Shown one piece after another: positions 34,914 to 57,600 of a stretch of DNA of 64,000 nucleotides. Each line of letters begins with the position of its first letter. The stretch's first letter is position 1. Origin of the DNA: Desulfovibrio piger (lineage in GTDB: Bacteria; Desulfobacterota; Desulfovibrionia; Desulfovibrionales; Desulfovibrionaceae); contig NZ_OX636706.1 in the NCBI RefSeq assembly GCF_951793255.1, positions 2,102,001-2,166,000 on the forward strand, written 5' to 3'. The notes below the pieces were generated by a model that was not told the DNA's origin, did no database searches, and worked only from the letters and a program-made list of their open reading frames with translations. The position numbers were made by a program, and so were the translations under genes.

Positions 34914-35813
34914 TCAGGCCCGGCCCAGGGCGAGGATCTCGTCCCTGCTGCGGGGCAGGACCTCGGGCAGGGCGGCGATGAGGCGGCTCACAGGTGTGGA
35001 CGGATCGGGCCGGCAATGGGCGGCCAGCAGGCGGGCCAGACGTGCGGCGGCCAGGGCGGCCGTGGCGGTGGGCAGACCGGCGCACAGCAGGCCGGTGACG
35101 AGGCCGGTCACGATGTCCCCGGTACCGCCGATGCACTCCATGGCCGGGACCGAGGGACTGTCCACCACGGCGTGGAGGCGGCCTTCGTGGATGATATGGT
35201 CGGCCTTGCCCTTGATGATCAGATTGGCCGGGCAGTTGCCGTGCTCCTGTGCCCGGGCCAGCAGCACGGGGATGTTCTGTTCCTCGGCCAGCAGGAAGCC
35301 GCGCGTATAGAAGGGGTGGGGCGCTTTTTCATCCGCCAGGAAGGCCAGTTCGCCCACGTCCGGGGTGAAAAGTTCGTAGGCATCGGCATAGCCGCTCATC
35401 TTGGCCACATACATGAAGCCCGCATCGGCCACCATCAGGGGCGCGTTCTCCAGTTCCCGGACAGCCAGCAGCAGGCGGTTGTGCCAGTCCACGTCGGGAA
35501 AAAGGTAATGGAAGGTCAGGCCGCGCGGGGCCAGGGCGGGCAGGGCTTTTTCCAGCCAGGCATAGAGCCGGCGGCTGCCGGAACCGGAGCCGGTATCCCC
35601 GGCCAGCAGCAGGGCAGGGGGCGTGCAGCCAAGGGCCGCGCAGGTCTGCAGGGCCGTGGCTGCCAGGGCCGCGGTGCCCCGTTCCACGGGCACGGTACGG
35701 CCGTCAGGCAGGTGCAGGCCCGCTTCCGAAAGGCTGGCGCTACGCGGGGCGGGGCCTTCCGGCACCAGCAGAGAAAAATCAGGGTCGGGGATGGTTCCGG
35801 CTATGATCCACAT
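34914..35813 (-). CDS. NAD(P)H-hydrate dehydratase-like ribokinase-fold protein
   Basis: The 299-aa protein resembles the C-terminal dehydratase domain of YjeF/NnrD, which repairs hydrated NAD(P)H with ADP or ATP. Visible: LLLAGDTGSGSGSRRLY, ELFTPDVGELAFLAD and the ribokinase-fold anion hole GGTGDIVTG near residue 240. No epimerase domain is attached. It is the last gene of the yedE operon and overlaps the DUF3343 gene by 13 bases, so a role in that pathway, rather than general metabolite repair, is possible. Confidence 0.75.
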   Translation of the reverse strand: MWIIAGTIPDPDFSLLVPEGPAPRSASLSEAGLHLPDGRTVPVERGTAALAATALQTCAALGCTPPALLLAGDTGSGSGSRRLYAWLEKALPALAPRGLTFHYLFPDVDWHNRLLLAVRELENAPLMVADAGFMYVAKMSGYADAYELFTPDVGELAFLADEKAPHPFYTRGFLLAEEQNIPVLLARAQEHGNCPANLIIKGKADHIIHEGRLHAVVDSPSVPAMECIGGTGDIVTGLVTGLLCAGLPTATAALAAARLARLLAAHCRPDPSTPVSRLIAALPEVLPRSRDEILALGRA

Positions 35814-36397
35814 GCGAGCTGTCTCCGTATCTCCTCAAAGGCTTTTTGCAGGCTGTAGCAGCACAGGGTCTGCCCCATGCTCAGCGGTTCGGGGGCCGTA
35901 TCCAGCGTTTTGCCGCACAGGCAGTGGGCCAGCCAGGGCACGTCCGGGCAGCCGCCGCCGGAGATGTTGACGATGCGCCGGTCGCGGCAGTCCACCGTGA
36001 TCTTCATGTTGGCCGCGCGTACCATGAGCCAGTGTTCCAGACGGCTGGTCTGGAACAGGGACACGGGCTCCAGCAGCACGTCATGGGCGCTGACCACCTG
36101 TTCCGGCTCCAGATCGGCCGTTTTCAGGCTGGCCAGCACTGCGGCCTGGCGGATGAGCGGGAAGACCACCACCATGTCGCAGCCGGTACGCATCTGCGGG
36201 GGCGGGCCCTTGACGTCTACGTCAAAGCCCTGCTGCCGCAGCAGGCGTTCGGCCCGGATGACGTCGCCCGTATGGGAAAAAGCCAGCAGGCCCCGGTCGG
36301 AAAGGGCGCGGGGGCCTGCATCGGGAGCGGACTCTTTTTTGAACAGGCCGCCCAGACGGCGACCGAGAGAGGAAAAAAGGGAATGCTTCGAGGTCAT
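35801..36397 (-). CDS. DUF3343-containing protein of a selenium cluster
   Basis: DUF3343 proteins are small thiol-bearing proteins often encoded beside YedE/YedF-type selenium genes. I start at ATG 36397 (MTSKHSLFSSLGRRLGG) because AGGAAA precedes it; 198 aa. The DUF3343 core is LLAFSHTGDVIRAERLLRQQG...MVVVFPLI (about 38-90). A second part carries Cys residues in SGGGCPDVPWLAHCLCGK, possible selenium or sulfur carriers. The gene overlaps the kinase-like gene and follows the TusA-like gene after a 47-base gap. Confidence 0.78.
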   Translation of the reverse strand: MTSKHSLFSSLGRRLGGLFKKESAPDAGPRALSDRGLLAFSHTGDVIRAERLLRQQGFDVDVKGPPPQMRTGCDMVVVFPLIRQAAVLASLKTADLEPEQVVSAHDVLLEPVSLFQTSRLEHWLMVRAANMKITVDCRDRRIVNISGGGCPDVPWLAHCLCGKTLDTAPEPLSMGQTLCCYSLQKAFEEIRRQLACGS

Positions 36398-36406
36398 GCG
36401 TTTCCT

Positions 36407-36431
36407 GAAAAGGGGCGGCCGGAGCCGCCCT
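36407..36431 (-). other. Hairpin between the TusA-like and DUF3343 genes
   Basis: On the minus strand GGGCGGC-TCCG-GCCGCCC is followed by CTTTTC. The weak T run suggests partial termination or mRNA processing inside the operon. Confidence 0.5.
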
Positions 36432-36444
36432 TGCATGGATTTTT

Positions 36445-36663
36445 TTAGGCCTGACGGCTGATCTCCAGCCGCCAGATGCCGTTCTCTTCACTTTCCGTCA
36501 CATCGAAGCCGCTGTTGCGGGCCGCGCGGGTCACGTTCTCGAGGCTGGCCTCATTGTCCACCAGGACGGAGAAAGGACCTTCGGGCTGCTTCTTGGCAGC
36601 GGTCAGGAACATCAGGACAGGCTGGGGGCAGGAGAGCCCGCAAGTATCGATAAGGGTCGCCAT
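36445..36663 (-). CDS. yedF: TusA/YedF-like sulfurtransferase
   Basis: TusA-fold proteins carry persulfide or, in YedF-type, probably selenium. The 72-aa protein begins MATLIDTCGLSCPQPVLMFLTAAKK, with the CPxP motif whose Cys is the carrier residue. The ATG overlaps the yedE stop codon by one base (TAATG), so the two are translationally coupled. The C-terminal DUF3343 part found in fused YedF proteins is here a separate neighbouring gene. Confidence 0.85.
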   Translation of the reverse strand: MATLIDTCGLSCPQPVLMFLTAAKKQPEGPFSVLVDNEASLENVTRAARNSGFDVTESEENGIWRLEISRQA

Positions 36664-37757
36664 TACGCACCTCGCTTGCAATTGAAGAAACCGATGAGCA
36701 GGCAGACGGCCAGGCCGCCCAGGGCGCCCAGCATGCCGTTGGGACCGATCCCCGCCGTGCTGGAGGCCATGCCGAAGTTATGGGCGCAGGCCGCGCCCAC
36801 GATGAGACCGACCACGAACACGGCCGCGTCGTTGTCGCCTTCACCGGCCATGAAGAGCTGGCGGCCGGGGCAGCCGCCGGCCAGGGCAAAGGCCAGACCG
36901 GCCGTCACCATGCCCAGGAAGTTCCACAGGCCGTCGGTATGGGCCACGGGCTGGCCTTCAAAACCGGGATGGAAGCCGCCGATGGCCAGATTGGCCACCA
37001 GCGCGGCGGCCAGCATGGCCAGGAAACCCAGGGCCAGATGCCACTGGTTGAACAACAGGACGTCACGCACGGCGCCCATGGTGCAGAAGCGGCTGCGCTG
37101 GGCCAGGAAGCCCACCAGCAGACCGGCACCGAGCGAGAGCAGGAAGGGGGCGTGCATGGAGCCGGGGCCCTTGAGGGAGTAGAAGAGGACGCCGTTCTGG
37201 GCCTGTCCTTCCATGGGCGGGTTGAACAGATAGACGGCGACCAGGGCGAGCATGATGCCGGGCAGGATCAGGCCGGATGCCTTGCTCTGGCTCTGGCTGC
37301 GGCCCAGGGAGAAGCCCATGCGGAAGAAGACCGTGCCCAGACCGATGCCGACCACCAGGCCGGCCAGGCCGAACAGGGCGTTGGCGTCGCCGCCGGCCAG
37401 ACGCATGATGACGCGCCAGGGGCAGCCCAGGAAGACCAGGGCGCCGATGGCTGCGATGACGCCCAGCAGGAAGCGGACGGCCGGAGCGGAGCCGCCGCGG
37501 GCGCGGTATTCGCCAAAGCAGAGGGCAGCGGCCAGAGAGCCCAGCACCATGCCCATGATCTCGGGACGCAGGTACTGGACGATGGGCGCGCGGTGCAGGC
37601 CCACGGCCCCTGCGATGTCGCGGTTGAAGCAGACCACGCAGATGCCCATGTTGCCGGGGTTGCCGGAGAACTGCAAAAAGACGGCGATCAGGCCCAGGAT
37701 AAGGCCCGTGACCACGATGCCCGTGGTGGACGAGAAGAAATTGAAGCTGTTTTTCAT
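36663..37757 (-). CDS. yedE: YedE/YeeE-family membrane protein linked to selenium metabolism
   Basis: YeeE/YedE proteins are channels for thiosulfate or, with YedF, presumed selenium compounds. ATG 37757 (MKNSFNFFSSTTGIVV) gives 364 aa, with about ten hydrophobic helices and the paired Cys motifs of the family: FLGCPWR near residue 110, AQRSRFCTMGAVRD near 230 and AGGCPGRQLFMAGEGDND near 300. It leads an operon of yedE, yedF, DUF3343 and an NAD(P)HX-dehydratase-like gene. A nearby selenoprotein gene (39762) supports the selenium reading. Confidence 0.87.
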   Translation of the reverse strand: MKNSFNFFSSTTGIVVTGLILGLIAVFLQFSGNPGNMGICVVCFNRDIAGAVGLHRAPIVQYLRPEIMGMVLGSLAAALCFGEYRARGGSAPAVRFLLGVIAAIGALVFLGCPWRVIMRLAGGDANALFGLAGLVVGIGLGTVFFRMGFSLGRSQSQSKASGLILPGIMLALVAVYLFNPPMEGQAQNGVLFYSLKGPGSMHAPFLLSLGAGLLVGFLAQRSRFCTMGAVRDVLLFNQWHLALGFLAMLAAALVANLAIGGFHPGFEGQPVAHTDGLWNFLGMVTAGLAFALAGGCPGRQLFMAGEGDNDAAVFVVGLIVGAACAHNFGMASSTAGIGPNGMLGALGGLAVCLLIGFFNCKRGA

Positions 37758-38070
37758 GCGACCCCCCAAAAGACGGGATGCGGCAAAAGTTGAAAAAATG
37801 CGCGCAGATCCGTGACGGACCTAGGGGATGGGGGACCGTGATATGGCGAAGGTCAAGGAACCAGGACATGCCGTCGGCGCGACCACCCCGCTGCGCTCCA
37901 CACCGTGAAGCCGGTGGTGTTGCGTCAGGTATGGTGCATGGGCATGGACGTGCTCCTTGGATCAGACGGGTCGTGATGGATAAGGGCAGCCTAGGAAAAG
38001 AACAGGGACGGGTCAAGTTCTTTCGGGAAAAAAGGGGACAGGCGGCTGGACCGGGAGCAGGGCGGGCATG
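37758..38070. other. Gap between yedE and the pyrR terminator
   Basis: About 310 bases with no gene I can support. It must hold the yedE promoter on the minus strand; I see neither a clean sigma-70 nor a sigma-54 match. No strong repeat. Confidence 0.4.
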
Positions 38071-38097
38071 AAAAAAGGGGCATCCGGCGGATGCCCC
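38071..38097 (-). terminator. Terminator after pyrR
   Basis: GGGGCATCC / GGATGCCCC 9-bp stem with 3-base loop, then T6 on the minus strand. Confidence 0.92.
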
Positions 38098-38103
38098 TGC
38101 AGG

Positions 38104-38640
38104 TCAGTTCTTGGCGGTCAGCAGGACTTCATCCCGTCCGTCCCGTTCTTCCAGCAGGACGTCCACCTGCTCCTGCGGGCGGGTGTCCACGCTGCGGCCG
38201 ATGTAGTCGGCCTGGATGGGCAGTTCGCGGTGGCCGCGGTCCACGAGCACCAGCAGCTCCACCTTGCGGGGACGGCCGTAATCCAGCAGGGCCTCCAGGG
38301 CGGCACGGATGGTGCGTCCGCTGAACAGCACGTCATCTATAAGGATGATCTCCGCGTTGTCCACCGGGGCGGTGATGCGCGACTGGCCGATGTGGGGCTT
38401 GCCTTCCAGGCTGGTCCAGTCGTCACGGTACAGGTTGATGTCCAGCGTGCCCAGGGGCAGGGGGCGCTGCAGCTTCTGCTGCATCAGGGCGCCCAGGCGG
38501 CGGGCCAGGTCGGCGCCGCGGCGTTCGATGCCCACCAGCATGACGCGCTCGCACTGCCCGTGCCGTTCCAGCACTTCGCAGGCAAGACGTTCCAGAATAC
38601 GGGTCATTTCCTCTTTGTCCAGCAGCAATGTCGTGGGCAT
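38104..38640 (-). CDS. pyrR: Bifunctional pyrimidine regulator / uracil phosphoribosyltransferase
   Basis: PyrR makes UMP from uracil and PRPP and in Gram-positives regulates pyr attenuation. ATG 38640 (MPTTLLLDKEEMTRIL) follows GGAGGAA; 178 aa. The PRPP loop IILIDDVLFSGRTIRAAL lies near residue 100, with GIERRGADLARRL near residue 40. It is a single-gene unit with its own terminator, sitting between two selenium-related groups without obvious relation to them. Confidence 0.95.
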   Translation of the reverse strand: MPTTLLLDKEEMTRILERLACEVLERHGQCERVMLVGIERRGADLARRLGALMQQKLQRPLPLGTLDINLYRDDWTSLEGKPHIGQSRITAPVDNAEIILIDDVLFSGRTIRAALEALLDYGRPRKVELLVLVDRGHRELPIQADYIGRSVDTRPQEQVDVLLEERDGRDEVLLTAKN

Positions 38641-38705
38641 AATTCCTCCAGAAGTGATGTCTTTCCATACGCCTTTTTGGCAGCGGAGAAAAGCCCCGCG
38701 AGCGA

Positions 38706-38733
38706 TTGACAATCTTTGGGGCTGACCTTACAT
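38706..38733 (+). promoter_or_regulatory. Candidate promoter of the HesB-like array
   Basis: TTGACA, 16 bases, TTACAT, ending 28 bases before the first HesB-like ATG. The -35 is perfect, the -10 moderate. Confidence 0.5.
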
Positions 38734-38760
38734 GTTACGGGCAACACTGGAGGTAGTGCC

Positions 38761-39087
38761 ATGCTTACGTTGACCGATGCCGCCCAGAAGGAACTGGAAG
38801 GTTTTTTTGCCGACAGGGAAAAAGCGACCGTTCGCATCTACCTTGCCCCCGGCGGCTGCTCCGGCCCGCGCCTTGCTCTGGCGCTGGACGAAGCCGGTGA
38901 GAACGATACCTGGATCGAACAGGGCGGTTTTGCCTTCTGCATCAACAATGAACTTTTGCAGCAGGTGAAAAGCGTCAGTATCGATGCCAACTACCTTGGC
39001 TTTCTGGTGACCCCCGAAGTGCCCCTGCCGTCGTCGGGCGGCAGCGCCTGCGGCGGTTGCTGCGGTGCCTGCGGCAGCCACCAGTAG
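38761..39087 (+). CDS. HesB/IscA-like protein, cysteine form 1
   Basis: IscA/HesB-type proteins bind iron or Fe-S clusters through three Cys. ATG 38761 follows GGAGG; 108 aa (MLTLTDAAQKELEGFFADREK). The first conserved Cys is in LAPGGCSGPRLAL (near residue 38) and the others in the C-terminal tail SACGGCCGACGSHQ, longer and richer in Cys/Gly than classical IscA. It is the first of three tandem paralogues. Its host pathway is not shown by neighbours; the third copy carries selenocysteine at the first Cys position. Confidence 0.85.
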   Translation: MLTLTDAAQKELEGFFADREKATVRIYLAPGGCSGPRLALALDEAGENDTWIEQGGFAFCINNELLQQVKSVSIDANYLGFLVTPEVPLPSSGGSACGGCCGACGSHQ

Positions 39088-39258
39088 CCTTTGACGGGAA
39101 GGCGCAGCATGTTCCTTCCCGCGTCATCCCTGCTCTGACGATACCTGTCACCTCCTGCGTCAACAGTTGCCGCACCGGCAACGGGCGCTGCCCTGAACGG
39201 CGCCTCTTCCCCTGCGGGATACGGGAAGTCCGGGACGCGGCATCGTCAAGGAGAAGGA

Positions 39259-39585
39259 ATGATCACTTTGTCTGAAAATGCCCGCAAAGAGCTGGAAGCC
39301 TATTTTGCGGACAAGGAACGCCAGACCATCCGTGTGTATCTCGCTCCCGGCGGCTGCTCCGGCCCCCGGCTCGTCCTGGCTCTGGACGAACCCGGAGACG
39401 AGGACGCCAGGTTCGAACAGGACGGCTTTGCGTTCTGCATCAACAAGGAATTGCTGCAACAGGTGAAGAGCGTCAGCATAGACTTGAGCTATCTGGGCTT
39501 CACCGTGACCCCCGAAGTGCCCCTGCCTTCGTCGGGCGGCAGTTCCTGCGGCGGTTGCTGCGGCAGCTGCGGCAGTCATCAGTAG
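39259..39585 (+). CDS. HesB/IscA-like protein, cysteine form 2
   Basis: 108 aa, starting MITLSENARKELEAYFADKE after GGAGAAGGA. The motif LAPGGCSGPRLVLALDEPG and the tail SSCGGCCGSCGSHQ match copy 1. It is closer to copy 3 than to copy 1: the first 20 residues of copies 2 and 3 are identical. A 171-base gap separates it from copy 1, and 176 bases from copy 3. Role presumably Fe-S or metal binding; no experimental function can be claimed. Confidence 0.85.
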   Translation: MITLSENARKELEAYFADKERQTIRVYLAPGGCSGPRLVLALDEPGDEDARFEQDGFAFCINKELLQQVKSVSIDLSYLGFTVTPEVPLPSSGGSSCGGCCGSCGSHQ

Positions 39586-39761
39586 TCCCTGTCCGGTGGG
39601 GCCGGCTGTCCCGGCCCGGCCGGTTTTGTCATAACAGAAGGTCCCGTCTTCTGTTTCCATCAACTGCCGTTACCGGCGGAGAGGGCCTGTTGCCCCAGGG
39701 CATCGGTCCCGGTTCCTGACGGGCAGGACGCTCCGCAGATACGGCCCAGAGAGGAATAGGA

Positions 39762-40082
39762 ATGATCACTCTGTCTGAAAACGCTCGTAAAGAGCTGGAA
39801 GCCTACTTCGCGGACAAGGAACGCCAGTCCATCCGCGTGTTTCTTGCCCCCGGCGGCTGAAGCGGCCCGCGTCTCGCCCTGGCTCTGGATGAGCCTAACG
39901 CACAGGACAGCACCGAGGAAGTTGACGGTTTCACCTTCTGCATGGCCACCGACCTGGTGGCGCAGATCAAGGGCGTCAAGATTGATATGACCTACATGGG
40001 ATTCACCGTGGATCCCGAGGTGCCGCTGGCCTCTTCCGGCAGCAGCTGCGGCAGTTGCGGCAGCAGCTGCGGCAGTCACTAG
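39762..40082 (+). CDS. HesB/IscA-like selenoprotein (in-frame TGA at 39858-39860 read as Sec)
   Basis: Reading TGA as selenocysteine gives 106 aa: MITLSENARKELEAYFADK..., LAPGG-U-SGPRLALALDEP, ending SSCGSCGSSCGSH before TAG. Sec33 aligns exactly with the first conserved Cys of both upstream paralogues. The frame and similarity continue without change after the TGA, which rules out simple decay. A SECIS-like hairpin lies 20 bases downstream. HesB-like selenoproteins are a known prokaryotic family. GAGAGGAATAGGA precedes the ATG. An automatic gene caller would stop at codon 32 or start inside. The yedE operon 2 kb away supplies selenium context. Confidence 0.88.
39881..39895 (+). promoter_or_regulatory. 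SECIS-like hairpin
   Basis: GGCTC-TGGAT-GAGCC, a 5-bp stem with a G-containing 5-base loop, 20 bases after the TGA, inside the distance range of bacterial SECIS elements. Copy 2 has GGCTC TGGAC GAACC here, which breaks the stem; the changes in copy 3 (GAC to GAT, GAA to GAG) are synonymous. Confidence 0.7.
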
Positions 40083-40207
40083 GCGGATCGTGATCCGTCG
40101 GCTGTCCGTGCGGGGAAATGTTCCCACACCGCCCGGGATGTGCATGCACGCATCCCCCCGGGTCGCTTGAAGCATGGCCCCCGACAGCTACAGATAAGAG
40201 ATCCCGC

Positions 40208-40233
40208 AAGGCGGCCTTCGGGCCGCCTTTTTT
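40208..40233 (+). terminator. Terminator after the HesB-like array
   Basis: AAGGCGGCC-TTCG-GGCCGCCTT, a 9-bp stem with UUCG loop, then a T run. It separates the array from mfd. Confidence 0.93.
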
Positions 40234-40294
40234 GAACCCTTTCCCAGGATTCGGCGTCGTTGGTGGCGTCGTTTTTGCTTTTCCGGCGGACAGT

Positions 40295-43200
40295 ATGGCA
40301 GATATCCTTTCCCTGCTCTCAGGGCCGGCCGAGGCCCGACACTGGCAGCGCAGCGGCATGGCGTCCTGTTGCCGTCTTGCCTGCGCCGCGCTGGCCCAGG
40401 GACGCAGCAGCGTCATCCTGGTGCGCGACCGTGAGGAATACACGGCGGCGCGCGCACTGCTGACCCTTTTTTCTCCTTCGCTTTCCCTGGCTGACATGGC
40501 CCCTGATGTCCCTGCCTGGAAACTGCCCTTTGCCGCGCTCCCTGCCGGCCTTTTGCTGCGCCGTGACCGGGATTCGTGGGCAGGACGGCTGGCGGCCCTG
40601 TACGGCCTTGCCCAGGGCGGGCCCCGCTGCCTCATCCTGAGCACGGAAGCGCTGCTGCTGCGCCATGTGCCCCGCGATTTTTTTGCCGAGCATACGCTCG
40701 ATCTGACGCGGGGCAGCGACTATCCGCCGGAGCTGATCCTCGATCAGGCCGTGGAGTGGGGCTACGAACGTGTCCCCCTGGTGACCCGGCCGGGGCAGAT
40801 GGCCCGGCGCGGCGACATCTTCGACATCTTCCCGTCCGGCTATCCGCGTCCTGTACGCATGGAGTTTTTTGGCGATACGCTGGAAGAGCTGCGCCTGTTC
40901 GATGCCGAGAGCCAGCGCTCCCTGCAGGGGCTGGACGAGCTGACCCTGCTGCCGGCCCTGCCTTTCGTGCTGGATGCGCAGGGCCTGGCCGCGGCCCGCA
41001 AGCGCATGGATGCCCTGTTCGCCGGGGCGCGCATCAGCGAGAACGACTGCTACACCTTCAAGAAGACCCTGGATGCCGGCGGTCTGGGCCTGCTGCCGGG
41101 CGTGGTGCACGAAAATGCCAGCACCATCGCGGACTGGCTGCCCGAGGAGCCGCTCTGGTTCCTGCCCGGACAGGCGGACTGCGATGCGGCCCTGCACGGG
41201 ACGGCCATGCAGTTGCGCGACCAGCTGGAAGAAGATGATGCGCCCCTGCCGCAGCCGTCCGCCCTGTGCCTGTACGGCAGCCTGCAGGATCTGCCCTGGG
41301 GAAAGGCCCGCCGTTTTTATCTGGAGCCCCTGGTCATGGGCGTGGACGCCGTGGGGGACGACGTACAGGAACGTCCGCTCCATGCCTTTACGGATCTTTT
41401 CCCCGTCCCCGGCGCGGCCGACCGTCCGTGGCAGCATCTGTCTGCCGGTCTGAAGGAATGGCAGAACCGGCGCCGTCAGGTGGTGCTGAGCTTCTCCTCG
41501 CAGCGCAGCCGGGCCAAGTTCCTCAAACTGGCCGAGCAGGAAGGCATCACGCCTGCCTTGCGTTATGCGCCGGAACAGCGCGGACTGTTCGCCCTGGTCT
41601 CCCCCTGGCGTTCGGGTGCGGAGCTGGTCTGGGACGATGTGCTCGTGCTGGGCGAGGACATCCTCTATCCGCGTGCGGAAAAGAAGGCCCGCGCCTCCTC
41701 GCGTGCGTTCAAGGGACTGGACAGCTTCGATGACCTCAAGGCCGGGGACCTGCTCGTCCACCGGGATTACGGCATCGGCCGTTTTGCCGGTCTGCACCAT
41801 CTGGTGCAGGGAGGACAGGGCAATGACTTCCTTCTGGTGGAATACTCCGGGCAGGACAGGCTCTATGTGCCGGTGGACCGCCTGGGGCTCATCCAGCGCT
41901 TCAAAGGTGGCGAGGGTGAGGAACCGGCCCTTGACCGTCTGGGCGGCGCCAGCTGGAGTTCCGGCAAGGAGAAGGTCCGCAAGGCCATCGAAAAGATTGC
42001 GGCCGACCTGGTGGAGATGTACGCCTACCGCAAGGTGGCCAAGGGCTTCCGCTACGACCCGCCGGGCGAGCTGTACCACGAGTTCGAGGCGACCTTCGGC
42101 TTTGAGGAGACCCCGGATCAGGCCCGGGCCATCGAGGACGTTTTGGCCGACATGGACAAGTCCGAGCCCATGGACCGTCTGGTCTGTGGTGACGTGGGCT
42201 TCGGCAAGACCGAAGTGGCCCTGCGCGCCGCCTTCCGCGCGGCCAGCGAGGGGCGTCAGGTGGCCCTGCTGTGTCCCACTACGGTGCTGGCCGAGCAGCA
42301 TTACCAGACCTTCCGGGCCCGTCTGGCCGGTTTCCCGGTCACGGTGGGTCTGCTGAGCCGTTTCGTGCCCCGTGCCCGGCAAAAGGAAGTCCTCAAGGCC
42401 GCGGCCGAGGGGCAGATCGACATCCTGCTGGGCACGCACCGCCTGCTGTCGTCGGACGTGTCCCTGCCCAACCTCTCCTTGCTCATCCTGGACGAGGAAC
42501 AGCGCTTCGGTGTGCGGCACAAGGAAAAGCTCAAGGCCCTGAAAAAGAACGTGGACGTGCTGACTCTGACGGCCACGCCCATCCCGCGCACCCTGCAACT
42601 TTCCATGTCCGGCATCCGCGATCTTTCGGTCATCGAGACCGCGCCGCAGGACCGCAAGCCTGTGGCCACGGCCGTGCTGCGGCGTGACGATGCCACCCTG
42701 CGCACGGTCCTGGAACGCGAGCTGGCGCGGGAAGGGCAGGTGTTCTGGGTCTACAACCGTGTCCAGGGGCTGGAGCGCGTGGCCGAATATGTGCGCAAGC
42801 TGGTACCCACCGCCCGGGTGGGCATGGCGCACGGCCAGATGTCGGAAAGCGAGCTGGAAAGCAACATGCACAAATTCTGGCACGGCGAGCTGGATGTGCT
42901 GGTCTGTACGGCCATCGTCGAGTCGGGCCTGGACTTTCCCCGCGCCAATACCCTGGTGGTGGACCAGGCCCAGCTCTTCGGCCTTGGCCAGCTCTATCAG
43001 CTGCGGGGCCGGGTGGGCCGCAGTGACCGTCAGGCCTACGCCTTCTTCGTGGTGCCCGATACGGAGCATCTGAGCGAAGTGGCCGAGGAGCGGTTGCGCA
43101 TCATCATGGACATGGACTATCTGGGTGCCGGTTTCCAGGTGGCCATGGAAGACCTGCGCCTGCGCGGTGCGGGCAACATCCTGGGCGAGGTGCAGTCCGG

Positions 43201-54625: not shown

Positions 54626-57600
54626 GGTCGTTCTCTCCTCGTGCATGGAACACTTCTTCGGTGGCGGAGGCGGTCTCCGCGTCGTGGGCGGCTTCCGCCT
54701 GACGGCGGAGCACGTTCTTGTAATCCAGCGGCATGACCTTGACGAAGAGCGGCAGGGCGGCATCCCAGTTGGCCAGCAGGGACGCTGCCTTGGCGCTGCC
54801 GGTGCAGGCCGCGTGCCGTTCCACCAGGCGGCGCAGCAGGGCCTGATCCTCTTCCTGCCAGACGGATTCCAGATCCACGCTTTCGATGTTGCAGCGGTTC
54901 TGGAAATGCTCGTCCAGATCGTAGACGAAGGCCGTGCCGCCGCTCATGCCTGCGGCGAAGTTGTAGCCGGTGCGTCCCAGGACGACGACGGTACCGCCGG
55001 TCATGTATTCGCAGCCGTGGTCGCCCACACCTTCCACCACGGCGCAGGCACCGGAGTTGCGCACGGCAAAACGTTCCCCGGCCTGGCCGCAGAAGTAGGC
55101 CTCCCCGGCGGTGGCGCCGTACAGGGCCACGTTGCCGGCCACGGCCTGTTCCGCCGCCACGAAGCGGGCCCCGGCATCGGGGTGGACCACGATGGTGCCG
55201 CCGGCAAGGCCCTTGCCCGCGTAGTCATTGACGCTGCCTTCCACCTCAAGGGTCACGCCGGGGGCCAGGAAGGCCCCGAGGCTTTGCCCGGCCTGACCGT
55301 GGAAGTGGAGGTGCAGGCTGTCCTGGGGCAGACCGGCGGCCCCGTGACGCAGGACGATGCTGCCGGAAAGGCGCGCGCCCACGGCACGGTCCACATTGCG
55401 GATGGTCCGCTCGATGCGCAGATAGTCGCACTGGCCCGCCAGTACGGGTTCGGCGGCCTGATCGAGGTCCTGTTCCAGGGCCGTGGGTTCACAGACCCGG
55501 GGGAAGCCCCCGGCATGGTGTTCGCAGGCCGCGTCAGGCGTCCAGAGCAGGCGCGAGAGGTCGAGGGAGGCCGCCCGGCCCGTGATGTCCGTACGCTGTG
55601 CCAGCAGATCGGCATGGCCGACGGCTTCGTTCAGGGAGCGGAAGCCCAGGGCGGCCAGTTCGCGGCGCACGTCCCCGGCCAGCAGGCGCAGGAAACGTTC
55701 CACATATTCGGGGCGGCCCTTGAAGCGGGCACGCAGCTTTTCGTCCTGGGTGGCGATGCCCGCCGGGCAGCGGCCCTTCATGCAGTTGCGGCACATGACG
55801 CAGCCCATGCTGACCATCAGCGCCGTCCCGAAGGCGAATTCCTCGGCGCCCAGCAGGGCAGCCACGAGCACGTCGCGTCCGGTGCGCAGCAGACCGTCGG
55901 TCTGGAGGGACACCCGCCGGCGCATGCCGCAGGTCACCAGCGCCTGATGCGCCTCGGCCAGACCGGATTCCCACGGCAGGCCCACATAGTGGATGGCGGA
56001 ATGGGGGCTGGCACCGGTGCCGCCGTCATGGCCGGAGATGACCACGCAGTCCGCACCGGCCTTGGCCACACCCACCGCGATGGTCCCGACACCGCTTTCG
56101 GCCACCAGCTTGACGGAGATGCGGGCCGAAGGATTGAGGTGACGGAGGTCGTAGATGAGCTGCGCCAGATCCTCGATGGAGTAGATGTCGTGATGCGGCG
56201 GCGGGGAGACCAGGGAGACCCCGGGCATGGTGGCACGGACACGGGCGATGTCCACCGTGACCTTGTAGGCGGGCAACTGGCCGCCTTCACCGGGCTTGGC
56301 ACCCTGGGCCGCCTTGATCTGGATCTCTTCCGCATGGGCAAGATATTCCGCCGTGACGCCAAAGCGGCCCGAAGCGATCTGGCGGATGCGGGAGCGCGCG
56401 TCATGACGACGGCCGTCCGCGTCCGTCCGGGGCGTGTTGCGGGCCGGATCCTCGCCGCCTTCACCGCAGTTGGAGGGCACGCCGCAGGCATTGCAGCCTT
56501 CGGCCAGGGTGCGGTGGGCTTCGTCACTGATGGCGCCATAGGAGATGGCCGCACCGACGAAGTGCCGCAGGATGGCCTCTTCCGGCTCAACATCGTCCAG
56601 AGGGACGGGGGCGCGGGCCGGGTCGGGCGCGATCTCCAGCAGGGAGCGCAGCGTGAAGCCCTGGGCTTCCTGTTCGTTGCAAAGGCTGGAGAAGGTCTGC
56701 CAGGCCGGGGAGGGAGCCTGTCCGTCCGTGTCTTCATTGACGGCCGTATGCAGGGCGCGCACGGTACGGGGGCTCCAGAGACGCGCCGCAGGGGCGGCAG
56801 CGGTGGTATCGGTATCGTCCCAGGCCTGCGCGTGACGCAGGGCGGCATCGCGGGCCAGGGTCTCCAGACCGATGCCGCTGATGGAGCAGGGCGTGCCCGT
56901 GAAATAGCGGTCGATGACATCCTGTGACAGCCCCAGGGCCTCGAAGGGCTGCGAGCCGCGGAAAGATCGCAGGGTGGAGATGCCCAGACGGGCAAAGGCC
57001 TTGAGCAGGCCCTTCTTCAGGGCGTTGATATAGCGTTCCTGCGCGTCTTCTTCGTCAAGAGGCCCGGCGTCCGTGCTCAGGCGACCTTCCCGTGCCATGC
57101 GGCGGACGGCATCCAGGGCCGCGTGCGGGCAGACGGCATTGACGCCGTAGCCGATGAGCTGCGCCATGTGGATGACCTCGCAGGCTTCGCCGCTTTCCGC
57201 GATGATGCCGCAGGCATGGCGAAGCCCGGCACGGATGAGATGATGGTGCAGGCCCGCGCAGGCCAGCAGGGCGGGGATGGGCGCCTTGTCCGCCGTCATG
57301 GCCGTATCGCTCACCACCAGGATGGTGGCCCCTTGGGCGATGGCAGCCTCGGCGTCAGCGAACAGGCGATCGAGGGCCGCGCGCAGGGCTTCCCCGTCGC
57401 CGTGGGCCGGGAAAGTGGCGTCAAGGGTGACGGCCCGGACGGCGGGACGCCGCGAGGCCCGGATCCGGCGCATGTCGTCCGTGGTGAGGAAAGGATGGGG
57501 CAGGCGCAGGACAGCGCAGCTTTCGGGGCCCGGTTCCAGGATGTTGCCCGCACGTCCGGCATGGCCCATGAGCGACATGGACAGCTGTTCCCGGTAGGGG

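Follow-up and report, generated by a model that had tools for sequence, protein, structure and literature searches.

The locus described here raises the question of whether a TGA within a HesB/IscA-like reading frame of Desulfovibrio piger ends the protein or is read as selenocysteine (Sec) and, if the latter, what a protein with a selenolate at that place would do. We analyzed a window of 64,000 nucleotides, the whole stretch of DNA presented, together with its host genome (a single contig of 3.08 Mb). The hesB-like gene occupies positions 39762-40082 of the plus strand, with an ATG at 39762, a TAG at 40080-40082 and a single TGA inside, at 39858-39860; judged by its frame and its family match it would encode a selenoprotein of 106 aa with Sec (U) at residue 33, the residue encoded by the TGA, and a Cys-rich tail. 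An earlier sequence-only reading had proposed a TGA-interrupted HesB/IscA-like frame here, and its coordinates are exact to the base. That reading also held that the TGA replaces a Cys of two adjacent paralogues, and the two tandem copies on the same strand do have TGC at that position: one, at 39259-39585, is 74% identical to the Sec copy, the other, at 38761-39087, is 58% identical, and each encodes 108 aa.

The frame remains recognizable as a HesB-like protein beyond the TGA. The Sec copy passes the family model NF038090 IscA_HesB_Se with 104.5 bits against a cut-off of 85 over nearly its whole length; with the TGA translated as a residue, the model aligns to residues 1-98, so homology is found on both flanks of the TGA, and the proposal that the frame stays open and similar to its end holds. 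The UxGP Sec site is present as USGP (residues 33-36), and the protein is 99% identical to its nearest named record, the counterpart in Desulfovibrio piger ATCC 29098. Codon use was scanned with a model learnt from mfd at the 348 in-frame TGA sites of the window that had at least 20 open codons before and at least 40 after them. The hesB TGA was the sole site with a score of at least 0.2 on both flanks, and it ranked 4th of the 348 by advantage over the other reading frames, each of the three sites above it having one poor flank; a first scan of the window, using other settings, flagged no site, the hesB TGA included. Two further sites, at 56925 (plus strand) and 2553 (minus strand), were the only others with both flanks above zero, with signals much weaker than that of hesB and probably due to chance. 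The stretch after the TGA (residues 34-92) gave dN/dS values of 0.23-0.42 against the Sec copies of seven relatives, an eighth comparison being without synonymous change and hence without a ratio; the reference row was the locus L032, whose aligned Sec coding sequence (CDS) is identical to that of the window. The same TGA-bearing CDS is found in two further assemblies (L031 and L032), so the TGA cannot be put down to a sequencing error in this one genome, which bears on the earlier reading's refuting condition that the reads might show TGC.

The host genome holds selA (585 bits), selB, selD (310 bits) and a tRNA-Sec (85.2 bits) with the anticodon TCA. The selD gene (G000:C1:3069594-3070538, locus L021) carries an in-frame TGA of its own, and the host selenophosphate synthetase is probably itself a selenoprotein, selenocysteine-containing enzymes of this kind being a known type. 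Among the 79 genomes of the genus surveyed, the HesB-like family was found in 70 and selA scored above its cut-off in 58. TGA copies were counted only at 50 bits or more, so that G149, with only a 26-bit TGA match, was scored as without. Under this rule, 43 of the 58 selA-bearing genomes had a TGA copy, as against none of the 21 genomes that lack selA (Fisher p = 7e-10), 8 of these 21 being less than 90% complete; for the 55 genomes with a completeness of at least 90%, the counts were 35/42 and 0/13 (p = 5e-8), both p-values overstating independence because the surveyed genomes share ancestry. Seventeen of the 21 selA-less genomes had a family match without TGA, and all 14 loci fetched from these 17 genomes had Cys at the site. 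In ten selA-bearing genomes the family was matched, yet no TGA copy passed the 50-bit rule. Away from the main locus, divergent HesB-like matches of 22-26 bits with in-frame TGA were observed in G146 (C69:37313-37859, two side by side) and G149 (C101:44383-44601, one); these are possibly a second, distant Sec-bearing branch.

In the family as a whole, U or C occupied the site in 147 of 154 hits. The seven others (L121, L122, L127, L152, L153, L156 and L157) have neither Cys nor Sec there while the rest of the protein is recognizable (one is cut by a contig end), and they stand as no-ligand paralogues beside others that have the ligand. They were excluded from the 147-row tables, in which merging identical CDSs left 61 Sec and 84 Cys copies.

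The consensus for bacterial SECIS elements is a hairpin just after the UGA whose small apical loop has a G among its first bases. In our own test against this consensus, the Sec copy fits the bacterial rule: a core of GGCTC (39881-39885), the loop TGGAT and GAGCC (39891-39895), together 39881-39895 on the plus strand, starts 20 nt after the TGA and corresponds in RNA to a hairpin GGCUC-UGGAY-GAGCC with a 5-bp stem and the loop UGGAY. The core, NTGGCTCTGGAYGAG, was found at one fixed place, its stem starting 20 nt after the TGA, in 58 of the 61 distinct Sec copies. L123 is one Sec copy without the exact core. Two others, L124 (G167) and L125 (G108), have one codon fewer after the UGA and an intact core at 17 nt instead of 20, and thereby offer a natural test of SECIS spacing. 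For a pairing test, identical 54-nt segments were merged, and L124, L125 and segments that contained N or were too short were excluded, leaving 51 Sec and 78 Cys segments. All five stem pairs were formed in 50 of the 51 Sec segments versus 9 of the 78 Cys segments, and each of six versions of the stem with one side slid by 1-3 bases in either direction was formed in none of the 51. Likewise, the four inner pairs of the core had an average pairing probability of 0.74 across 60 Sec copies, versus 0.14 across 30 Cys copies that encode the same residues. These residues, Ala-Leu-Asp-Glu, used GCT, CTG and GAG in 60/60 Sec copies each, versus 13/30, 23/30 and 10/30, respectively, in the Cys copies; GCT makes up 85 of the 455 Ala codons elsewhere in Sec genes. 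As the hairpin codons are fixed in Sec but not in Cys copies, we read this pattern as selection on the RNA.

Folding energy was dropped as proof of the hairpin: the isolated 66-nt segment folded no better than its shuffles (z 0.44), its best fold containing the stem all the same, and mean folding energies were equal for Sec and Cys genes. As overall fold stability gives no signal, the case for the hairpin rests on the fixed pairs and codons. Covariation was slight (a change from G-C to G-U at one pair in 6 of the 51 Sec segments), because the stem hardly varies, and an Rfam search of positions 38000-41000 returned one chance-level match only.

Taken together, the family match, the Sec machinery, the genus survey and the hairpin make this very probably a translated selenoprotein gene of the HesB/IscA-like family. 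The UGA at codon 33 would almost certainly be decoded as selenocysteine, by SelB and tRNA-Sec(UCA) guided by the hairpin from 20 nt downstream. The sequence-only reading is thus supported by those of its proposed checks that sequence data can answer, namely a bacterial SECIS-type hairpin, which our own pairing and codon test found, homologues carrying either U or C there (the 147 hits above) and Sec genes in the genome, all four of which are present. That the TGA is instead a real stop, in a duplicate decaying next to two intact Cys copies, or a sequencing error, is extremely improbable: the adjoining intact paralogues and the loss of the site residue in 7 of 154 family copies, by which degenerate copies do exist, speak for it, but we rejected it on the genus survey (all 43 genus genomes with TGA copies also have selA), the constraint downstream of the TGA and the recurrence of the identical CDS in two further assemblies; the invariant codons of the hairpin stand against it as well.

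The surroundings of the gene bear on its function. On the minus strand of the window lie a gene for a protein with a putative Se/S carrier domain (35801-36436; PF11823, 49 bits, cut-off 25; no NCBIfam match), called DUF3343 in PMC5322559, a gene for a YedF-like TusA-domain protein (36445-36681; PF01206, 56 bits; TIGR03527, 45.9 bits, below the cut-off of 110) and one for a YedE family putative selenium transporter (36663-37769; TIGR04112, 458 bits, cut-off 200). They are followed on the same strand by pyrR (38104-38640, with an ATG start; NF003549, 222 bits, cut-off 138, searched from residue 4), a divergent neighbor whose synteny is kept in many relatives. The yedF-like gene encodes a single TusA domain of 78 residues and stays under the YedF cut-off, though it lies directly behind yedE. 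Between the Sec gene and mfd, a terminator-like GC-rich hairpin with a T run (40210-40233, plus strand) was noted by eye; it is absent from the output of the promoter and terminator scan, which gave nothing usable. The order Se/S-carrier-like gene, yedF-like gene, yedE and pyrR, all on the minus strand, then the hesB copies, mfd and surA, recurs in the genus.

In its main text, PMC5322559 connects YedE, YedF and DUF3343 with the use of selenium, HesB going unmentioned there. A role of the Sec protein in selenium handling, in which it would act with YedE, YedF and the Se/S-carrier-like protein to carry, store or report selenium in reduced form, could be read from the presence of yedE within the fetched stretch at 25 of the 33 Sec loci of the genus that have 3.5 kb upstream, versus none of 16 Cys-only loci. 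We consider this role quite unlikely, as the block is on the opposite strand with pyrR in between, the yedE association may simply follow selA, and the block did not lie nearby in other genera, where yedE was found at 0/18 and pyrR at 14/18 hand-picked Sec loci. The loci from outside the genus (L150-L169, 20 in all) were picked by hand among the matches listed, and counts based on them are not a sample. A yedE neighborhood as a general feature of the family was accordingly discarded, having been seen in the genus Desulfovibrio only.

More direct indications come from the protein itself. It did not reach the cut-offs of the equivalog models for IscA, SufA and ErpA (TIGR02011, 27.2 of 150.6 bits; TIGR01997, 26.1 of 136.2; NF010147, 22.9 of 117), and by score it is none of these three. 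With C scored for U, it fell just under the gathering score of PF01521 Fe-S_biosyn (25.8 vs 26.3), which the Cys twins pass (28.2 and 32). A search of the genome with P0001 recovered the three tandem copies and no others, and one with PF01521 found one of these three and nothing else. Because the latter recovered just one of three copies, a very divergent relative could be missed, whereas a standard IscA, SufA or ErpA would have been expected to turn up. The genome also encodes one NifU_N protein and one SufB/D core protein. The structural model predicted for the Sec protein (alignment of 60 copies) had a mean pLDDT of 85.9, its tail being disordered from residue 93 on, and displays the IscA fold: its best Foldseek matches were IscA and SufA, with an E value of 6.6e-07 to 1x0g and TM scores of 0.69 and 0.75 to 1s98. 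In the two alignments examined, to the solved relatives 1nwb and 2apn, residue 33 aligned with the Cys of the GGCSG motif, and the last 20 aligned residues contained 2 or 3 Cys in 61/61 distinct Sec copies. The residue-33 site and the tail Cys correspond to the ligand positions of A-type carriers. The protein thus shares predicted fold and Cys positions with IscA, SufA and ErpA (PDB 1x0g, 1s98 and 2d2a), but differs from them in that Sec replaces the first Cys, the tail is rich in Cys, Gly and Ser, and the scores lie far below the cut-offs.

Two functions may be weighed against this background. The protein could be a redox enzyme, whose selenol at position 33 would form a thiol-disulfide or peroxide-reducing center with Cys60 or a tail Cys. 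For most prokaryotic selenoproteins that await characterization, a redox role is considered likely (PMC13188914), and Cys60 is present in 55 of the 61 Sec and 78 of the 84 Cys copies. We nevertheless regard a redox enzyme as rather unlikely, given that position 60 is V, A or L in six Sec copies, that the nearest folds are IscA and SufA, and that the site is UxGP and not UxxC or CxxU. Cys60 as an obligatory partner of Sec33 was rejected outright, since those six of the 61 Sec copies do without it. The other function, a selenolate-liganded carrier of an Fe-S cluster or metal, is favored because of the IscA/SufA-like fold, the U or C at the site and the tail Cys in all Sec copies. With the A-type carrier (IscA/SufA) fold of the predicted model, selenocysteine at the first ligand position and more Cys in the flexible tail, the protein would bind an Fe-S cluster or metal and hand it on, the selenolate being one ligand. 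Judging from the position of the residue and the predicted fold, this carrier role is our best guess, and we give it about even chances.

Selenoproteins of this kind are already known in the organism group. In 2006, 11 HesB-like selenoproteins were counted, including those of D. vulgaris and D. desulfuricans (Table 3 of PMC1794560), and PMC1914089 lists D. vulgaris DVU_1382 with its TGA; searching the openly licensed literature for D. vulgaris locus tags led to PMC1914089 only. By these published listings, the Desulfovibrio proteins share with ours the family name and a Sec encoded by TGA, while the entries themselves do not describe the tandem Cys twins present here. A 2026 review gives UxGP as the motif of the HesB-like family in its Table 1 and counts this family among those identified mostly by bioinformatics (PMC13188914); this review and PMC9312934 cite TIGR01911 for HesB-like selenoproteins. 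The Sec copy scored 36.7 bits with TIGR01911 HesB_rel_seleno, under the cut-off of 66.35, so that this related family is a different branch, whereas NF038090 is its own family, with no notable difference. The loss of such genes by standard annotation, expected by the sequence-only reading, is doubtful in the case of NCBI, which has this dedicated model. A further HesB-like member, that of Methanococcus maripaludis, is archaeal, and the SECIS arrangement of this archaeon differs from the bacterial one. It is described as distantly related to IscA, and its identification came from mutagenesis and 75Se labelling; nitrogen fixation persisted in the mutant, according to an unpublished observation cited in the same paper (PMC11097638).

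The tandem arrangement of Sec and Cys copies, on the other hand, recurs. A Cys copy adjoins the Sec copy at 48 of 63 Sec loci, 36/43 in the genus and 12/20 outside it, where the set consists of 19 hand-picked loci plus L030, and some contigs end near the locus. In a tree of 145 copies, 15 Sec/Cys changes were needed, at least 11 of them on well-supported branches, although the tree has few columns and long branches and does not fix the direction of the changes; on this basis, the pairing of Sec and Cys copies seems to have evolved on more than one occasion. Among the 84 distinct Cys copies, five still have the hairpin core in its exact form. Three of them (L142, L144 and L146) belong to the selA-less genomes G145, G148 and G152, and those selA-less genomes whose loci were read have the Cys form only. 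Because these three hairpin remnants occur without selA, they read most simply as Sec having given way to Cys at about the time the machinery was lost. Of the two others, L126 is in a genome with selA (G128) and L163 adjoins a Sec copy. Remnants of this type are not new: for this family, PMC1794560 reports two Sec-to-Cys events as well as SECIS-like structures in a HesB-like gene of Desulfitobacterium hafniense that encodes Cys. In the titles and abstract openings of the openly licensed literature (supplements lying outside this scope), no description of tandem Sec/Cys HesB pairs in Desulfovibrio was found among the matches listed. We have not seen in print the Cys copy at 48 of 63 Sec loci, the hairpin remnants in three selA-less genomes or the nearby yedE-yedF block in the genus.

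Altogether, what these results add is the strength of the sequence case, in that the split of 43/58 versus 0/21 genomes and the fixed hairpin codons argue strongly for Sec decoding, and the recurrence of the Sec/Cys twins. The Cys twins would do the job of the Sec protein with sulfur. It is tempting to speculate, although we hold it to be on balance improbable, that selection maintains the tandem twins as a working pair, perhaps as mixed Sec/Cys oligomers or as two forms of a single Fe-S or metal carrier, one suited to high and the other to low selenium, and that they may be the sole IscA-fold proteins of these sulfate reducers. The fossil hairpins allow the change from Sec to Cys to be traced inside one genus. 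If the site holds a cluster or metal, it would represent a natural selenolate ligand of a cluster that is handed on, with matched Cys twins as controls in the same cell. If the twins are indeed a working pair, they would constitute a repeatedly evolved natural experiment that compares selenolate with thiolate as the ligand of a transferable cluster, in which the hairpin fossils would mark the lineages that went back to Cys upon loss of selA.
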